In this document: positions 3,352 through 35,979 of the stretch, in pieces
How positions within the stretch are numbered: position 1 is the stretch's first letter
Layout of the letters: each line of letters opens with the position of its first letter
Assembly (NCBI GenBank): GCA_016125275.1
Contig: WGMB01000002.1
Span: 1-64,000, forward strand
DNA length: 64,000 nt
Direction: 5' to 3'
Source of the DNA: Acidobacteriota bacterium
GTDB lineage: Bacteria; Acidobacteriota; Terriglobia; Bryobacterales; UBA6623
Program-made: the position numbers and the translations under genes
The notes under the pieces: model-generated
The model's input: only the letters and a program-made list of their open reading frames with translations
What the model was told of the DNA's origin: nothing
The model's database searches: none

Positions 3352-4263
3352 CTATAGGGCCAGCTCGCCTTTGTAGACCAGGTCCTTGAGCTTGAAGCGC
3401 GCCTTGATCGGCAGGCCGCCGCCTCGCCGCGGGTTTTCGCTCTGCTCGGCTTCCTGCCCGGCCTCGCCCTCGGGCTGCCGCCGCCCTTGCCCCGCTCCGG
3501 GACCGCCGCCCATGCGGAGGGTGAGCGCGAACTCGACCTGCTTGTCGTCGAGCACGATCGGGTCGGTCTTGGGGAAGAAGAAATACAGCTCGACGGCTTG
3601 CTCGTTGGCGCGGCCCTCGGCCTTGACGGCGGCCAGCGGGTCCTTGCCCTTTCTCTCCAAGTGCGCCTCGGGAGCCAGACGGCCGGCGTTCTCGGCCAAA
3701 CGGCTCATGCGGGCCGGAAAGCCCGAAACCGCCACGATGTAGTGCTCGCCGGGAGCATCGAGAAACTTCTGCTGGTCGGCCGTGATCTCTCCGCCCTCGG
3801 CGCCCATGCGGCTCCGCAGGATGGCTTCCTTCACGGGACGCGCCGTCTGCCAGCGCACATAGAGCGGGCGTTGGGCGAAACCGCCGCCACCGCCGCCCAT
3901 GCGGCCGCCACCGCCGCCGCCTCCAAAGCCACCGCCTCCTCCGCCACCGCCGCCGAAACCGCCGCCGCCGTCCGTATCTCCGCCTCCGCCGCCGAGACCG
4001 CCGCCTCCTCCCGCGCCGCCGCCGGCCCCGCCGAAGCCGCCGCCGCCACGGCCGCCTCCGCCGCCGCCTCCCGGTCCGCCGGAGCCGCCGGGCGGGCTGA
4101 GCGCGACCTGCGATACCCAGGGCGACTTGAACAGCATCTGCTGGACGTTCTCCATCGACCAATCGCGAAAGTCGGGAGTCTTGTCCCAGAAATCAGCCGC
4201 CCGCAAATCCCAACTCGCTGCCAGCGCCAGGGGCGCGGCTCGCAGGACCTCTCGTCTCGTCAT
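3352..4263 (-). CDS. Secreted glycine-rich hypothetical protein
   Basis: 303 residues. The N-terminus MTRREVLRAAPLALAASWDLRAA is an export signal with a twin-arginine-like RR. Then comes DFWDKTPDFRDWSMENVQQM, a segment I associate with uncharacterised acidobacterial secreted proteins (a 'FWxxK...W...EVxxxL..SPW' opening). Residues about 58-122 are almost pure glycine with scattered R, A, F and D, encoded by GGC/GGA-type repeats at roughly 3895-4090. The C-terminal half returns to normal composition (VKEAILRSRMGAEGGEIT...). The tract is flexible or disordered and prone to length variation. It converges on the small gene ending at 3323 and is divergent from hisS. No function is assigned. Confidence 0.7.
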   Translation of the reverse strand: MTRREVLRAAPLALAASWDLRAADFWDKTPDFRDWSMENVQQMLFKSPWVSQVALSPPGGSGGPGGGGGGGRGGGGFGGAGGGAGGGGGLGGGGGDTDGGGGFGGGGGGGGGFGGGGGGGRMGGGGGGFAQRPLYVRWQTARPVKEAILRSRMGAEGGEITADQQKFLDAPGEHYIVAVSGFPARMSRLAENAGRLAPEAHLERKGKDPLAAVKAEGRANEQAVELYFFFPKTDPIVLDDKQVEFALTLRMGGGPGAGQGRRQPEGEAGQEAEQSENPRRGGGLPIKARFKLKDLVYKGELAL

Positions 4264-6751: not shown

Positions 6752-8158
6752 ATGAACGCGCCCGCCCTGCCATTCCACCTGACCTTCTTTGGCGCAGCTC
6801 CGCACTTGCCCGAGCCGGCCCTGCCGCAGACGACGCCGGAGAGCGATCCGGGCGCGCCCGACCCGACTCCTCCTGAAAAGAAGGGCTCCTGGGGTCCCTG
6901 GCTGCTGCTGTTGGGCATTCTGGGCGGCGCAGCGACATGGGCGCTGACCAACCAGGCCAAGATCGGCGGCCCCAGCGGCCCGGTGGCGGTCGCGAACACA
7001 GTGGTGGTGAAGGCGGGCGAGCTCGACAAGAAGCTGCGCGTGGGCGGCACGATCACGGCGACCGAGTTCGCGGCGATTACCTCGCCCCGCATGCGCGGTC
7101 CGCGCGACGCCGGCCGCAGCTCACTCACACTGATGTCGCTGGCCGAGCCCGGCTCGATGGTCCATGCCGGCGACAACGTGGCCGAGTTCGAGCTCAAGTG
7201 GCTGGAAGATCACATCGACGACCGCACCTCGGCGGTGGTGCAGAGCAAGGCGACGGTAGCCAAGCGCAAGGCGGACATCCTGCTGGAGCAGGAGACCTCC
7301 CGGCAGGCCGCCGTGACCGCCCAGGCCGAGTACGAGAAGGCCAAGCTGGACCTGCGCACCGCGCCGGTCCGGTCGCAGATCGAAGCCGAGGTTCTGAAGA
7401 ATACGGCAGAGGAAGCCGAGGCGACCTGGAAGCAGCTCGAGGAAGAGCGCAAGCTGAAGGAGACATCCCAGAAGGCTGAGCTGCGGGCCGCCGAGATCGG
7501 CGTGGAAGAAGACGTGCTCCATCTGCAGCGTCACCAGAACGACTTCTTGAAGATGAAGGTGGCCGCCCCGGTGAGCGGCCTGGTCGTGATCGAGCCGATG
7601 TACAAGGGCGGCGGACAGTTCCAGCAGGCCGCCGAGGGCGACCAGATCTATCCCGGCGCCCTGTTCATGCGCATTGTCAACCTCGACCACATGGTCTTGA
7701 CGGCCTCGCTCAATCAGGTGGACGTGCACTCGATCCACATGGGCCAGACGGCGAAGGTGCACTTGGACGCCTACCCGGAGCTGGAGCTCGAAGGCCGCGT
7801 GGTGAGCATCGGGGCGATCGCGTCCGAGTCCAGCGGCGGCGGCTTCGGACGCGGCGGCTCGGGCCTCTACGTGAAGTCGGTGCCGGTGGAGATCGCCATC
7901 CACTCCGACGACACCCGCGTGATCCCGGACCTGTCGGCCAGCGCAGACATTCTCCTCGAAGATCCTTCCTCCGGCTTGCTGGCGCCTCGCGAAGCGATCC
8001 GAGAGGATGACAAGGGCTCGTTCGTACTGGTCCGCACGGGCCAGAAGTTCGAACGCCGCAACGTGACCCTCGGCGAGCAGAACACGACGCACGTTCTGAT
8101 CAAGGACGGCGTGGCCGAGGGAGACGAGCTGCTCATCGGAGCGCCGCCGGAGGTCTGA
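6752..8158 (+). CDS. HlyD/RND-type efflux adaptor (membrane fusion protein)
   Basis: 468 residues. A proline-rich cytoplasmic N-terminus is followed by one transmembrane helix (about 50-66, WGPWLLLLGILGGAATWAL). Then come a biotinyl/lipoyl-like half (VKAGELDKKLRVGGTITA), a long coiled-coil hairpin (about 150-265, rich in K, E, A, Q), the second lipoyl half (LKMKVAAPVSGLVVIEPMY) and a beta-barrel (VLTASLNQVDVHSIHMGQTAKVHLDAYPELELEG). This is the order of periplasmic adaptor subunits of ABC or RND exporters. No inner-membrane pump or outer-membrane channel is adjacent; the next gene, 23 bp downstream, is a sensor kinase. It therefore either works with a distant pump or belongs to the signalling cluster. 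Substrate unknown. Confidence 0.85.
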   Translation: MNAPALPFHLTFFGAAPHLPEPALPQTTPESDPGAPDPTPPEKKGSWGPWLLLLGILGGAATWALTNQAKIGGPSGPVAVANTVVVKAGELDKKLRVGGTITATEFAAITSPRMRGPRDAGRSSLTLMSLAEPGSMVHAGDNVAEFELKWLEDHIDDRTSAVVQSKATVAKRKADILLEQETSRQAAVTAQAEYEKAKLDLRTAPVRSQIEAEVLKNTAEEAEATWKQLEEERKLKETSQKAELRAAEIGVEEDVLHLQRHQNDFLKMKVAAPVSGLVVIEPMYKGGGQFQQAAEGDQIYPGALFMRIVNLDHMVLTASLNQVDVHSIHMGQTAKVHLDAYPELELEGRVVSIGAIASESSGGGFGRGGSGLYVKSVPVEIAIHSDDTRVIPDLSASADILLEDPSSGLLAPREAIREDDKGSFVLVRTGQKFERRNVTLGEQNTTHVLIKDGVAEGDELLIGAPPEV

Positions 8159-30801: not shown

Positions 30802-31680
30802 CTAGCGAGGAGCGCAGGCCTGCTTGTCGAACAGGGACCCGATCGAGACCAGCTCGATCCCCTTGCGCTCGATCTCCGCGCGCACCTCGGGGTCCGTCCA
30901 GGCCGCCAGCACGGAGCTACGCCGCTCCGCCCACCACACGCCGTCGTTCGTATCCACGGCCCGCAGCTCGGGCGCATCCTCGGCGGGATGCCCCACGTAC
31001 AGATACAGTCCGGGTTCGAGCTCTCTTAGAGCCGTCAGCAGAGCCTTCTTGATGCCGGCCCGCGTCGTATCCGGGTACTTGGGGCTGAAGCGCTTCTCAC
31101 CGAACATCCCCCCGCCGGAGATTCCCAGGCAGTATTGTTGCGCCAGCTTCTGGGTGATGGGCAGCAAGTCCTCGCGGCAAGCCATCGCCATGTGGCAGTC
31201 CACGTAGTCCAGTTGGAGGCCCAGCCCCAGAGCGCGCTCAATCTGCGCGCGAAACTCATGCTCGGCTTCCACCGGGTTGGGAGCGTGCTCGGCCCAGGGA
31301 GCGCCGTCGGCCTTCCAGTCCGCCGGCCGCGGCGCGCGGTAGCCGAACCCATAGAGATAGCCGTCCGGCGCCACCAGACTCGGCACGGCGCTGATGGGAG
31401 ACACCGGCCGCCAGCGCAGGGTGTTCCATTCGCTGGTGATGGTCAGGTGGACTCCGACGCTCCATTCCGGATGCCCCCGGATGATGCGCGCGGTCTCGCT
31501 GAACCAGGGCCCCGGCGTCAGCAGGCTCGCCGATTGCATCACCCCGTCCTCGAAAGCCTTCTCCAAAGCCATGTTCGAAGCGTGGGTATAGCCGAAGTCG
31601 TCGCCGCGCACGATCAGCCGAATCGGTTCAGCGGCCTGGCAGATCCAGACGGCCCACAGGGCGAGAACGAGCGCGCGCAT
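30802..31680 (-). CDS. Secreted ChbG/YdjC-family deacetylase
   Basis: 292 residues with a short signal peptide (MRALVLALWAVWICQAAE). Family motifs: RLIVRGDDFGYTHASNMALE (metal-binding DD), VGVHLTITSEW (the H and ligands of the NodB-like pocket) and LDYVDCHMAMA. Known ChbG enzymes remove one acetyl group from chitooligosaccharides; this member is exported, unlike E. coli ChbG, so an extracellular amino-sugar oligosaccharide is likely. It follows the oxygenase on the same strand order with a 47-bp gap. Confidence 0.85.
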   Translation of the reverse strand: MRALVLALWAVWICQAAEPIRLIVRGDDFGYTHASNMALEKAFEDGVMQSASLLTPGPWFSETARIIRGHPEWSVGVHLTITSEWNTLRWRPVSPISAVPSLVAPDGYLYGFGYRAPRPADWKADGAPWAEHAPNPVEAEHEFRAQIERALGLGLQLDYVDCHMAMACREDLLPITQKLAQQYCLGISGGGMFGEKRFSPKYPDTTRAGIKKALLTALRELEPGLYLYVGHPAEDAPELRAVDTNDGVWWAERRSSVLAAWTDPEVRAEIERKGIELVSIGSLFDKQACAPR

Positions 31681-31696
31681 CGGTAAAGAGTATACC

Positions 31697-31761
31697 GGCG
31701 GTAAATTTTTCGCACCGTTCCCGCAAAAATTTCCTCACGCTATTACGACTCGTTTACCGCC
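31697..31761. promoter_or_regulatory. Nested inverted repeats in AT-rich divergent region
   Basis: GGCGGTAAA (31697-31705) is inverted at TTTACCGCC (31753-31761). Between them AAATTTTTCGC (31703-31713) is imperfectly inverted as GCAAAAATTT (31723-31732). The stretch is far more AT-rich than its surroundings and lies between the ChbG-like gene and the coiled-coil gene, so it may hold divergent promoters with an operator. Confidence 0.5.
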
Positions 31762-31911
31762 AAAAGCAGGCCCTTGCCCGGGGTCCAAAGCACTAACCCT
31801 CTCATCCTGCGTGGGATAGCCGATTTCTCTCGATCCGCTCCTGAGTTTGGCCCCCCGTGTGCCTTATTGGGAGGCACGAGGACGAAAGGTTCAAACAGGA
31901 GATCCGCCGCC

Positions 31912-32796
31912 ATGAATTCGATTCAATCCAGCTCTTCCCAGCCCATGCAGCCGAGCCGCCGTCCCGGCGGAACGGCCATGAAGCTCGGTCTCGCCGGAGT
32001 CGCGATCATGGCGCTCGCATTCAACATCTACTTGATCTCCAAAGTGAATTACGTCGAAGGAAAGGCTGAATCTCAGCGCGAGTCCCTGGAGATGGAGATC
32101 AGCGCGCTGCAGGAGCGCCTGGCCGTACAGCACAGCAAGCAGCAGCAAACGCTGGCTGAGCTACGCGCCAGCATCGACGACACCTCGCGCAACGCCTATT
32201 CGCAGGCCCGCAACGAGTCGCAGAAGCGCGCCACCGATGTGGCCAAGGTCGTCGCGGCCAAGCAGAAGGAACAGCAGGACATGTTTCTGCAGGAAATCGG
32301 CGGCGTGAAGGATAAGGCCGCTACGAACGCGCAAGGACTGGAAGTCGTGCGCGGCGAGGTGGCCGGCGTGTCCACGAAGATCGACGACACGCGGCGGGAC
32401 CTCATGGAAACCGAGGACGTGCTGCTGCATACCCAGGACCAGTTGCTGGGCGTAAATACGCGGATGGACGAGCATGCCTCCGACATCGCCCGGCTCCGGG
32501 ACCAGAACGAGCGCGCCGTCACGCCTTTCCAACTGGACAAGAGCAAGGAGCGCACGCGGGTGGACGACGTGCACATCCGGCTCAAGAGCGTGGATGTGGG
32601 CAAGAACCGCTACACGGTCGAGATTCTGGCGGATGACAAAGTGATCGTGCAGAAGGACAAGTACCTCAACGAGCCGGTCGAGTTCTACGTGACCGGCGCC
32701 GACCGGCCCTACGAGATCGTGGTCACCGGCATCGAAAAGGACAAGGTCAGCGGTCACTTGAGCAAGCCGAAGTTTGCAGCGCTGGCGCGGCGCTGA
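31912..32796 (+). CDS. Membrane-anchored coiled-coil protein
   Basis: 294 residues. A short cytoplasmic Ser/Gln-rich tail, one TM helix (about 25-45; LGLAGVAIMALAFNIYLI), then a long coiled coil (about 55-205, AESQRESLEMEISALQERL and onward, many K/E/Q/D). A compact C-terminal beta-domain follows (about 215-280; VDDVHIRLKSVDVGKNRYTV, EILADDKVIVQKDKYL). The topology is that of a periplasmic tethered rod. The ATG at 31912 is preceded by AGGAG-like cagGAGatc. No family recognised. The gene directly precedes the hairpin array, which therefore lies in or just after its 3' untranslated region. Confidence 0.75.
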   Translation: MNSIQSSSSQPMQPSRRPGGTAMKLGLAGVAIMALAFNIYLISKVNYVEGKAESQRESLEMEISALQERLAVQHSKQQQTLAELRASIDDTSRNAYSQARNESQKRATDVAKVVAAKQKEQQDMFLQEIGGVKDKAATNAQGLEVVRGEVAGVSTKIDDTRRDLMETEDVLLHTQDQLLGVNTRMDEHASDIARLRDQNERAVTPFQLDKSKERTRVDDVHIRLKSVDVGKNRYTVEILADDKVIVQKDKYLNEPVEFYVTGADRPYEIVVTGIEKDKVSGHLSKPKFAALARR

Positions 32797-32841
32797 GAGA
32801 AGTTTGGACCGGGAGCTTCGGCTCCTGATCCAGACGGCGGG

Positions 32842-33777
32842 CGAGGTCCCCTGATCGGGCGCTAGGGGGCCTCGTACCAGCCGACCAAGGGTTTGAGGTC
32901 GAGCGAGCTTGGCTTGCCGATCTCAGGGCGGAGTGAGGTTTCCGTGGTTCGGGCGCTCCACGGAAACCTCGCTCCAAAAGCCCGAAGCGGGTTTGAGGTC
33001 AGTGGGGTTTCCTGCTGATCTCGGGGCGGAGTGAGACTTCCGTGGTTCTGGGCGCTCCACGGAAGTCTCGCTCCAAATGCCCCGAAACGGTTCGAGGTCA
33101 GCGGGGCTCTTCCTTCTGACCTCGGGGCAGAGTGGGACTGGCGTGGTTCTGGGCGCTCCACGCCAGTCTCGCTCCTACCAAGCCCCAGCGAGTTTGAGGC
33201 CCGGCGGGCTTGCCTGCCGACCTCAGGGCGGAGTGAGGTTTCCGTGGTTCTGGGCGCTCCACGGAAACCTCGCTCCGGAAGCCCAGCGAGTTTGAGGCCG
33301 GTCAAGCGAGCTTGCCGGTCTCAGGGCGGAGCAAGGTTTCGGTGGTTCTCGGGCGCTCCATGGGAACCTTGCTCCGATCGCCCTTTGAAACGGGTTTGAG
33401 GACGGGCGGCTTCGGCCAACCGCTCCTTGAGGGTGGAACGGGGTTGTTCATGGTTTCGGGCGCTCCATGGCGACTCCGTTCCCACACCCTCCGGTTACGA
33501 GTTTGAGCAGGGCGGGCGCTCTGTTCAAGGGACTGGGCGAGGTTTTCATTCGGGCGCGTTGGAGACCTCGTCCAGCCCACCAAGGTTTGCGAAACGGGTT
33601 TGAGTCGAGCCGGCGACGGCTCGGCTCATGACGGGAGGAACGGGGTGAAACCCTATCGGGCGCTGGGAATCGCCCCGTTCCGACCGACTTCCCGGTTTCT
33701 TTCGAGTTTGGGCAGGGCGCAAGCTCGGCCCGAGCGGTAACGGGGTCCTCTTCATCGGGCGCGAAGAGGGCCCCGTT
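32842..33777. repeat. Array of ten covarying hairpins, about 100-bp period
   Basis: Non-coding, 936 bp. Ten stem-loops at 32842-32874, 32930-32975, 33028-33074, 33129-33175, 33230-33276, 33328-33375, 33435-33482, 33533-33575, 33637-33681 and 33739-33777. Stems are 11-19 bp. Loops are 9-12 bases with an invariant GGGCGC core (commonly TTCTGGGCGCT). Stem arms differ between copies but stay complementary: left arms are GGAGTGAGGTTTCCGTGG (copies 2 and 5), GGAGTGAGACTTCCGTGG (copy 3), AGAGTGGGACTGGCGTGG (copy 4) and GGAGCAAGGTTTCGGTGG (copy 6), each with a matching right arm. Connectors carry GTTTGAG (or GTTCGAG/GTTTGGG) at 32891, 32991, 33090, 33192, 33290, 33394, 33501, 33598 and 33706. A second, smaller stem-loop often follows the connector. 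The period is not a multiple of three, so it is not a protein repeat. No T-tracts follow the stems. I recognise no named element. Confidence 0.92.
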
Positions 33778-33817
33778 TCTGTTTGCCGGTTCCGGTCCTT
33801 CTCCTCGCAGTACGATA

Positions 33818-35482
33818 ATGGGGCGCATGAATCGTCGCCAGTTCGCCGCCTTCTGCGGACTCATTCTTTCGACCCGCTGCGGCGGCGACCCGCCCGAATC
33901 AACCCCCTCGCCCGCCATGAATTTAGAAACCAAAGTCGAGCAATACGTCCCGTTTCGCCTGCAAGCCGACCTGGGAGGCCTGAGCGCCAACCAGCGCAAG
34001 ATGCTGCCGCTGCTGATCGAGGCCGCGCAGATCATGGACGGTTTGTTCTGGCGCCAAGCCTACGGCGACAAGCAGGCCTTGCTGAGCTCGCTCGACGGCG
34101 CCGCGCGGCGCTTTGCGGAGATCAACTACGGCCCCTGGGACCGTCTCGGCGACAACGAACCGTTCCTGCCCGGCGTCGGCCCCAAGCCGCCCGGCGCGGA
34201 GCTCTATCCGCACGATGTGACCAAGCAGGAGTTCGAGGCCGCCGTCGCAGCCTCCTCCGATGAGGGCAAGGCGCTCAAGAGCCTCTACACGGTGGTCGAG
34301 CGAGAGGGCGGAGCGCTGGTCGCCAAGCCCTACGGCCAGGTCTTCGGCCCGGAGCTCGAGCAAGCCGCGGGCAAGCTGCGCGAGGCCGCCGCGCTGGCCG
34401 AGGACGAAGGCTTCCGCAAGTACCTGACGCTGCGCGCCGACGCCCTCGTCCACGACGACTATCAGCCGTCAGACATGGCCTGGATGGACATGAAGTCCAA
34501 CCAGATCGACCTGGTCATCGGACCGATCGAGACCTACGAAGACCAGCTCTACGGCTACAAGGCGTCATTCGAGGCCTACGTACTGCTCAAGGACATGGAT
34601 TGGAGCGGCCGGCTTGCCAAGTACGCCGCGCTGCTGCCGGCTCTGCAACAGGGGCTGCCCGTACCGCCCGAGTACAAAAAGGAAGATCCCGGCGCGGACT
34701 CCGACCTCAACGCCTACGACGTGCTCTACTACGCCGGCGACTGCAACGCCGGGGCGAAGACAATCGCCATCAACCTGCCCAACGACGAGGAAGTCCAGCT
34801 CGCCAAGGGCGCCCGCCGCCTGCAGCTCAAGAACGCCATGCGGGCCAAGTTCGAGAAGATTTTGCTCCCCATCGCCGGCGTGCTCATCGCCGAGGACCAG
34901 CGCGAGCACGTGGACTTCGACGCCTTCTTCGCCAACACGATGTTCCACGAGGTGGCCCACGGCCTGGGCGTGAAGCAGACCCTGACCGGCAAAGGCATGG
35001 TGCGCGAAGCCATGAAGGAGAAGGCTTCGGCCCTGGAAGAGGGCAAGGCCGACATCCTGGGCGTCTACATGGTCACCAAGCTCATGGAGATGGGCGAGCT
35101 CGGCGACGACGTCGACCTGATGGACAACTACGTCACCTTCCTGGCCGGCATCTTCCGCTCCATCCGCTTCGGCGCTTCCAGCGCGCACGGCGTCGCCAAC
35201 CTCCTGCGCTTCAACTTCTTCGCGCAGATGGGGGCGTTTTCCCGCGATGAGGCCACGGGAACCTACCGGGTCAACCCGGACGCCATGGCCGCGGCTGTCG
35301 AAGCTCTGTCACGCAAGATCCTCACCTTGCAGGGCGATGGAGACTACGACGGGGCCGCGGCGTTCGTCGCCGAGATGGGCCGGATCGGCCCGGATCTCCA
35401 GGCGGACTTGGACCGCCTGGAAGCGGCGTCAATCCCGGTGGACATCGTGTTCGAGCAGGGCGTCGAGGTTCTTGGGCTCTAG
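33818..35482 (+). CDS. M49-like (dipeptidyl-peptidase III-type) lipoprotein metallopeptidase
   Basis: 554 residues; a second ATG at 33827 is equally possible. The N-terminus MNRRQFAAFCGLILSTRC has a twin-arginine-like start and lipobox Cys. Catalytic region: HEVAHGLG (HExxH, about residue 378) and further on EEGKADILGVYM, supplying the third ligand Glu and following Asp. That pattern, plus VLYYAGDCNAGAKTIAINLP and GKGMVREAMKEKASALEE, fits the bacterial DPP3-like family; eukaryotic DPP III has HExxxH instead. It would be an envelope-attached peptidase. It is the first gene after the hairpin array, with its ATG about 40 bp beyond the last stem. Confidence 0.85.
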   Translation: MGRMNRRQFAAFCGLILSTRCGGDPPESTPSPAMNLETKVEQYVPFRLQADLGGLSANQRKMLPLLIEAAQIMDGLFWRQAYGDKQALLSSLDGAARRFAEINYGPWDRLGDNEPFLPGVGPKPPGAELYPHDVTKQEFEAAVAASSDEGKALKSLYTVVEREGGALVAKPYGQVFGPELEQAAGKLREAAALAEDEGFRKYLTLRADALVHDDYQPSDMAWMDMKSNQIDLVIGPIETYEDQLYGYKASFEAYVLLKDMDWSGRLAKYAALLPALQQGLPVPPEYKKEDPGADSDLNAYDVLYYAGDCNAGAKTIAINLPNDEEVQLAKGARRLQLKNAMRAKFEKILLPIAGVLIAEDQREHVDFDAFFANTMFHEVAHGLGVKQTLTGKGMVREAMKEKASALEEGKADILGVYMVTKLMEMGELGDDVDLMDNYVTFLAGIFRSIRFGASSAHGVANLLRFNFFAQMGAFSRDEATGTYRVNPDAMAAAVEALSRKILTLQGDGDYDGAAAFVAEMGRIGPDLQADLDRLEAASIPVDIVFEQGVEVLGL

Positions 35483-35947: not shown

Positions 35948-35979
35948 TCTAACTCCACACGTCTCTAGCTCCACACGTC
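35948..35979. repeat. Tandem 16-bp direct repeat
   Basis: TCTAACTCCACACGTC is immediately followed by TCTAGCTCCACACGTC (one mismatch). It lies in the 191-bp divergent gap between the VOC gene and the propeller/transglutaminase-like gene, 48-144 bp from the two starts, so it could be a paired regulator site. Confidence 0.6.

Follow-up and report, generated by a model that had tools for sequence, protein, structure and literature searches.

A tandem array of two-hairpin units behind a coiled-coil gene in an Acidobacteriota genome: an apparently undescribed structured RNA

Directly behind a coiled-coil protein gene of an Acidobacteriota bacterium lies a tandem run of hairpins that share one loop sequence, which raises the question of whether RNA or DNA is the molecule under selection and what such an array might do. 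The window analysed here is a stretch of 64,000 nucleotides (positions 1 to 64,000 of contig WGMB01000002.1), and a first-pass annotation had picked out within it, at 32842-33777, ten hairpins with the loop core GGGCGC at intervals of about 100 bp. The ten loops are present as described, with start-to-start spacings of 94, 99, 101, 101, 99, 107, 94, 106 and 99 nt (range 94-107 nt). The span had been drawn too short: the array occupies 32800-33787 on the + strand, and unit 1 had been given without its hairpin A and unit 10 without its end. One hairpin per unit had also been assumed. The loop-bearing hairpin is real, but each of the ten units (80-99 nt) contains two, and the overlooked hairpin A likewise stays paired although its sequence varies.

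Every unit consists of a linker (mostly CGRGTTTGR), followed by hairpin A with 13 modelled pairs and then by the long hairpin B, with 18 modelled pairs and, in addition, a closing stem of 4 pairs (typically GGGC...GCCC). The loop of hairpin B is about 9-12 nt long and has the form UC(N)GGGCGC, with GGGCGC inside. All of the units lie on the + strand. Unit 1 (32800-32883) has linker, hairpin A, hairpin B and the loop ATCGGGCGC, while units 2 (32889-32983), 3 (32989-33082), 5 (33190-33284), 6 (33288-33383) and 7 (33392-33490) are matches of the covariance model described below. Unit 4 (33088-33185) has the linker GGTTCGA, unit 8 (33499-33578) has an extra GGGCGC at 33514 in its hairpin A, and units 9 (33596-33689) and 10 (33704-33787) complete the array. 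Since the hexamer is also found in hairpin A of unit 10 (33715), the + strand of the array holds 12 copies and the - strand 0. When hairpins of at least 13 pairs with at most one mismatch are counted, 13 are found in the array versus 28 across the rest of the 64 kb.

The units are related throughout but diverged, with pairwise identities as low as 44% within the window; units 2-6 are closer to one another (62-90%, with 9 of their 10 pairs at 72% or more). When two units from a second genome (see below) are added, all 12 agree in the loop GGGCGC, in a G and a T of the linker and in two columns of the stems. The loop formula UC(N)GGGCGC fits 12/12 units; TCGGGCGC itself is found in 9/12, and the remaining units have one extra base. 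A constant connector GTTTGAG had been reported between the hairpins. The linker is indeed nearly invariant as RGTTTGR (11/12 units, unit 4 being the sole exception), but the exact heptamer occurs in only 7 of the 10 window units.

Two alignments were used to judge whether the stems covary. The first, A3, is a structure-blind MAFFT alignment of units 1-8 onto which the structure was then written by hand; units 9 and 10 were left out because MAFFT had misplaced them in an earlier alignment (A1). In A3, 88.3% of the cells are paired, and in 17 of the 35 pairs both sides have changed. None of 500 shuffles reaches any of five measures, the slid controls all drop to 41-55% paired, and a null that preserves the tree and the changes per column yields a mean of 3.9 both-sided pairs and a maximum of 10 in 1000. 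The second alignment, A4, contains all 12 units (ten from the window and two from the second genome) and leans towards the model because it was fitted to it; there, 92.5% of the cells are paired and both-sided changes occur in 32 of the 35 pairs, versus a mean of 9.7 and a maximum of 19 in 1000 for the tree-preserving null. The two examples of compensated stem changes given in the first-pass annotation, between copies 2 and 3 and between copies 3 and 4, were both read correctly.

The arms of each unit are also matched to each other. In A4, stem B is 97% paired with its own arm versus a mean of 76.5% with swapped arms, and stem A 87% versus 62%. Among the near-identical units 2, 3, 5 and 6, some swaps of the stem B arms are paired up to completely, and own-arm pairing in stem A is poor in units 7 (62%) and 8 (55%). 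A covariance model, R1, built from the eight units of A3, recovers both withheld units when run on the window, unit 10 at 38.9 bits (E=3.6e-6) and unit 9 at 30.2 bits (E=2.5e-4); the best antisense match of R1 inside the array, at 27.5 bits, falls barely under the latter, and both units were missed in a genome-wide search with stricter filters. A covariance model and a covariation analysis had been proposed as the check on the structure, and the outcome is divided. The array as a whole far exceeds the null, as just described, but a per-pair G-test on the tree (R-scape-like, 12 sequences, 40 null alignments) finds 0/35 pairs at E<0.05, with the best at 0.051 and 12/35 below 0.5. This is attributed to there being just 12 sequences. 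Of the 35 column pairs that score highest in that test, just 5 are proposed pairs, so that the statistic alone would have missed the structure. Covariation therefore supports the structure as a whole and not its individual pairs.

The kinds of pairs found in the stems indicate which molecule is folded. Read on the + strand, the stem cells of A4 include 42 G-U versus 9 A-C combinations (two-sided binomial p 3e-6, a value that assumes independent cells, which these are not), and the structure-blind A3 gives 15 versus 1 in stem B and 17 versus 7 in stem A. The + strand also folds more strongly, at -618.6 kcal/mol (z -20.4, 20 shuffles), than the - strand, at -502.7 kcal/mol (z -11.9, 20 shuffles). 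The G-U excess and the stronger fold together argue for selection on RNA of the + strand, and it is nearly certain that the array is a selected structure with this RNA as the molecule. The first-pass annotation had inferred selection for RNA or single-stranded DNA structure and had listed DNA hairpins bound by a nucleoid protein among the possible roles; selection on structure is borne out, but the DNA versions are disfavoured, because DNA should not favour G-T over A-C so strongly.

The location of the array suggests how this RNA is made. The host gene (31912-32796, + strand; the ATG at 31912 was our choice within an open frame that begins at 31774) encodes a coiled-coil protein whose N-terminal hydrophobic segment resembles, by eye, a membrane anchor. 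No Pfam family matches this protein over its cut-off, the best being a sub-threshold match to Filament (E 0.0096). The family is near-universal in the order as sampled, with homologues in 197 of 200 genomes and between one and five matches per genome. Unit 1 begins 3 nt after the stop codon of the host gene, an M49-family peptidase gene follows in the same direction (33818-35482, + strand), and a YdjC gene lies upstream of the host gene on the opposite strand; the first-pass annotation had likewise placed the array after a membrane coiled-coil gene and before an exported peptidase gene. The simplest interpretation of a + strand RNA that starts 3 nt past a stop codon is that it forms the 3' UTR of the coiled-coil mRNA, and for the same reason a 3' UTR or intercistronic RNA is likelier than the free-standing structured long non-coding RNA that had been considered. 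Joint transcription with the coiled-coil gene is assumed in what follows and, judged from the arrangement of the genes, is probable. A promoter scan of 31400-34200 found no sigma-70-like site, which is weak evidence since shuffles yield just 0.2.

A shorter relative of the array, which had gone unnoticed in the first pass, occurs in one genome (G002), which belongs to a different genus of the family. R1, which contains no unit from G002, found it at E 0.003 among 61 genomes, with both units in its locus. The two units lie at 6913-6998 and 7013-7095 of L085 (JAQCLD010000076.1, Acidobacteria bacterium isolate casp40-mb.95, treated as identical to the G002 contig, with which it agrees in offset and bit scores) and start 9 nt after the stop of a gene whose product is 44-45% identical to the window's coiled-coil protein and has no Pfam family at E<=0.01. 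The outer genes differ, with a TgpA/transglutaminase-type gene upstream and an amino-acid permease gene downstream in G002 in place of YdjC and the M49 peptidase, so that what the two loci have in common next to the array is the coiled-coil gene. A two-unit array behind an orthologous gene argues for an inherited 3' UTR element.

Apart from this pair of genomes, the element appears to be rare. A second model, R2, built from all 12 units, matches 2 of 257 genomes of the order at E<=0.01 and 1 of 396 genomes in a sample of the phylum, the latter being the array's own genome. The two carriers in the order are the own genome and G002, both of which supplied units to R2, and these matches are therefore built in; what supports G002 independently is the R1 match and the syntenic position. 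These many-genome searches used stricter filters, with 10-68 candidates scored per genome, and weak or lone units could escape them. Among the loci of coiled-coil homologues, none of 43 others matches R2, and in a set of 29 run with R1 only G002's own locus (L015) falls below E 0.3. BLAST of the array against the 61 related genomes returned its own genome only, and against phages and plasmids it returned no match. A pattern of two loops and one linker fits 6 stretches in viral contigs and at least 116 in genome contigs; when 122 such matches were scored for stems, good hairpins at both loops were found in L085 only. R1 run over 86 of these loci (80 of the at least 116, plus the 6 viral ones) matches L085 twice (8.5e-5 and 4.6e-4), followed by L084 at 0.18. 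One of the viral contigs (L164, IMGVR_UViG_3300032213_002319) fits the pattern through a short tandem repeat of TCGGGCGCGGGTTTGGCCGAGGCT, without comparable hairpins. In two genomes of one other genus (L028 and L039), near-identical long hairpins, CGCTCCGGCGCCCGAAT...GCGCCGGAGCG, follow the coiled-coil homologue at distances of about 1.0 and 1.4 kb, and they contain GCGCCCGA, the reverse complement of the array loop TCGGGCGC, perhaps by chance.

The relationships among the 12 units bear on how the array grew. The first unit of G002 is nearest to unit 1 of the window (69% identity; next 62%), and its second unit is nearest, narrowly, to units 10 and 9 (56 and 55%, versus 54% to unit 1). Unit 1 groups with the first G002 unit in 209 of 300 bootstraps, the second G002 unit with units 9 and 10 in 232/300, and units 2-6 with one another in 280/300, while the two G002 units come together in only 10/300. 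The simplest history would be inheritance of an array whose first and last units differ from each other, with internal duplication giving units 2-6 in the lineage of the window. Loss of units in G002 is the alternative history.

The array does not fall into any of the known classes of repeats or RNAs with which it was compared. It is not a CRISPR, since its units are related along their full length rather than combining a constant repeat with unrelated spacers, and it is not a coding tandem repeat, because the spacings are not all multiples of three and overlapping open frames cover parts of it only. REP elements have been described as palindromic, extragenic and multi-copy (PMC12306157), whereas the array is confined to a single locus as far as searched and has a constant loop with variable stems. 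A REP consensus palindrome is ruled out by stems that vary with compensation and by identities down to 44%, and filtered searches of the own genome, both at the DNA level and with the models, found nothing beyond the array; a linker-loop pattern matches that genome 11 times, 7 times in the array and 4 times elsewhere, versus 5 for a reversed control pattern. On all three of these counts (CRISPR, REP and protein repeat) the first-pass annotation is supported. TIGR arrays have been reported to consist of tandem units that combine short constant pieces with variable ones, one subtype having variable palindromes (PMC12045711); the units here differ in being about 100 nt long with long stems, and adjacent units are near copies, not unrelated spacers. 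The Nop domain of TIGR-Tas (PF01798) was found in neither of the two carrier genomes, while a control matched in 4 of 14 genomes.

Comparison with RNA families leads to the same result. Rfam 15 has no family at gathering score in the window, GOLLD, ROOL and OLE included, and a relaxed search of 32700-33900 yields 16 sub-threshold matches at E<=5, the best-scoring of which reaches 25.9 bits versus a cut-off of 60. Acido-1 and Acido-Lenti-1, structured RNAs that have been reported from Acidobacteria (PMC2864571), are absent from these 16 matches. The scan of genome, order and Rfam that had been proposed at the outset therefore leaves two carriers and no named family. No description of such an element was found among the top-ranked papers of the literature searched, with most subscription journals lying outside it, and the array is provisionally regarded as an apparently undescribed structured RNA.

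Known multicopy small RNAs commonly present their seeds in loops, and the CcsR RNAs carry a CCUCCUCCC-type loop motif. In Rhodobacter sphaeroides, the homologous small RNAs CcsR1-4 have been described as clustered in the 3' UTR of the DUF1127 gene ccaF1, from which RNase E processes them, with a terminator at the 3' end (PMC8625941, PMC10253847). This CcsR, or cuckoo, system is the nearest analogue, as in both of them homologous hairpin RNAs follow one another in tandem immediately after a protein gene and on its strand. The array differs in its host, a coiled-coil protein with no Pfam family over cut-off and not a DUF1127 protein, in its loop, UC(N)GGGCGC in 12/12 units and not of the CcsR type, in having ten units versus four, in its phylum, and in that its processing is predicted from the linker motif and the presence of RNase E/G. 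The LhrC1-5 RNAs of Listeria, compared via Rfam only, resemble the array as interpreted here in being several siblings that share a regulatory role, but each LhrC copy is a gene of its own, and the LhrC seeds are rich in C and U.

The best reading, to which we give slightly less than an even chance, is that the array is a 3' UTR that is cut into sibling small RNAs sharing one loop. It would be transcribed on the + strand along with the coiled-coil gene, and RNase E-type cuts at the linkers would release about ten siblings of about 100 nt with two hairpins each. Recurring RGUUUG linkers between strong hairpins suggest such cutting, as in CcsR1-4. The linkers of 11/12 units contain an RNase E-type motif, RNWTT (RN/WUU), which corresponds to the core of the motif reported for Salmonella RNase E (PMC5222698), and genes for RNase E/G and Hfq are present in both genomes. 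However, only 9 of the 18 RNWUU sites in the array lie within linkers, and in the global fold the mean probability of being unpaired is just 0.04-0.64 for the nine linker motifs of the window, so that the linker sites are not clearly open. Each sibling would then offer the loop UC(N)GGGCGC to one common partner, either an RNA with a GCGCCCGA-like stretch or a loop-binding protein. The RNA is slightly the likelier of the two, given that Hfq is encoded in the genome and that multicopy small RNAs so commonly carry their seeds in loops. The number of units would set the dose of binding sites, and the array would thus act as a multi-copy regulator or sponge. Pairing of the loop with the linkers or with the ribosomal anti-Shine-Dalgarno sequence was dropped on inspection by eye.

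An invariant loop on drifting stems is also what reading of the loop by a protein predicts, and the array might therefore remain uncut and serve as a multivalent scaffold, its ten sites titrating or assembling a dedicated protein. Ten copies of one architecture fit this idea, and CsrA and phage coat proteins provide examples of proteins that read hairpin loops. CsrA sites carry a GGA that the array loop lacks, however, and the other genome has only two units; the scaffold is rather unlikely. Alternatively, the loops might pair with one another, as GGCGCU is self-complementary via GCGC, and so build RNA multimers or condensates. A self-duplex of -9.1 kcal/mol was computed for each of three typical loops, and a precedent exists in the homo-oligomers reported for GOLLD, ROOL and OLE RNAs (PMC12286853). 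The invariant GGGCGC includes a GGG that is superfluous for a GCGC kiss, though, and a selected kissing loop should presumably be a cleaner palindrome, which makes loop-loop kissing very unlikely. A bolder version, unlikely in our estimation, would be a multivalent RNA restricted to this lineage, in which ten identical docking loops on the mRNA of a membrane protein gather a dedicated protein or kiss, the tail building an assembly near the membrane where the protein is made.

The hairpins could also act on their own mRNA, stalling exonucleases or ending transcription, and have been duplicated without any role in trans. The start of the array 3 nt past the stop codon would suit such protective or punctuating hairpins, as would the single strong hairpin with a T-rich stretch after it that some other homologues (L028, L035 and L039) carry behind the gene. 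Unit 10 itself has a weak terminator-like end, in which the 3' arm of hairpin B finishes with CCCCGTT and is followed by the T-rich tail TCTGTTTG; a terminator scan (loops of 3-8 allowed) flagged neither this tail nor any site inside the array. A barrier requires neither an invariant loop nor an invariant linker, and this explanation is judged quite unlikely. Finally, long inverted repeats and the Y1_Tnp genes of both genomes might suggest REP-like DNA hairpins that are bound by a protein or moved by a RAYT/IS200-type transposase. Against this stand the G-U/A-C asymmetry, the single locus in the genome as far as searched, stem sequences that are not conserved, and the related array behind an orthologous gene, and the three Y1_Tnp matches of the own genome are on other contigs. 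A DNA element is extremely improbable.

The array illustrates how one genome can be enough to recognize a structured bacterial RNA, the covariation coming here from its tandem copies. Rfam contains no match to the array, and a single relative turned up in the searches. Should the reading as sibling RNAs be correct, the CcsR principle, in which a 3' UTR provides a dose of siblings, would have arisen again in Acidobacteria with a different loop. If the scaffold reading is correct, the array would be a natural multi-site docking RNA. Under either one, the invariant loop offers a direct handle on the partner.

The window contains no tRNA or tmRNA genes. It does contain other repeats, namely CCG-rich tandem repeats with periods of 3, 39 and 24 at 3881-4090 and, at 35948-35979, two tandem copies (93% match) of the 16-bp unit TCTAACTCCACACGTC in an apparently intergenic position.
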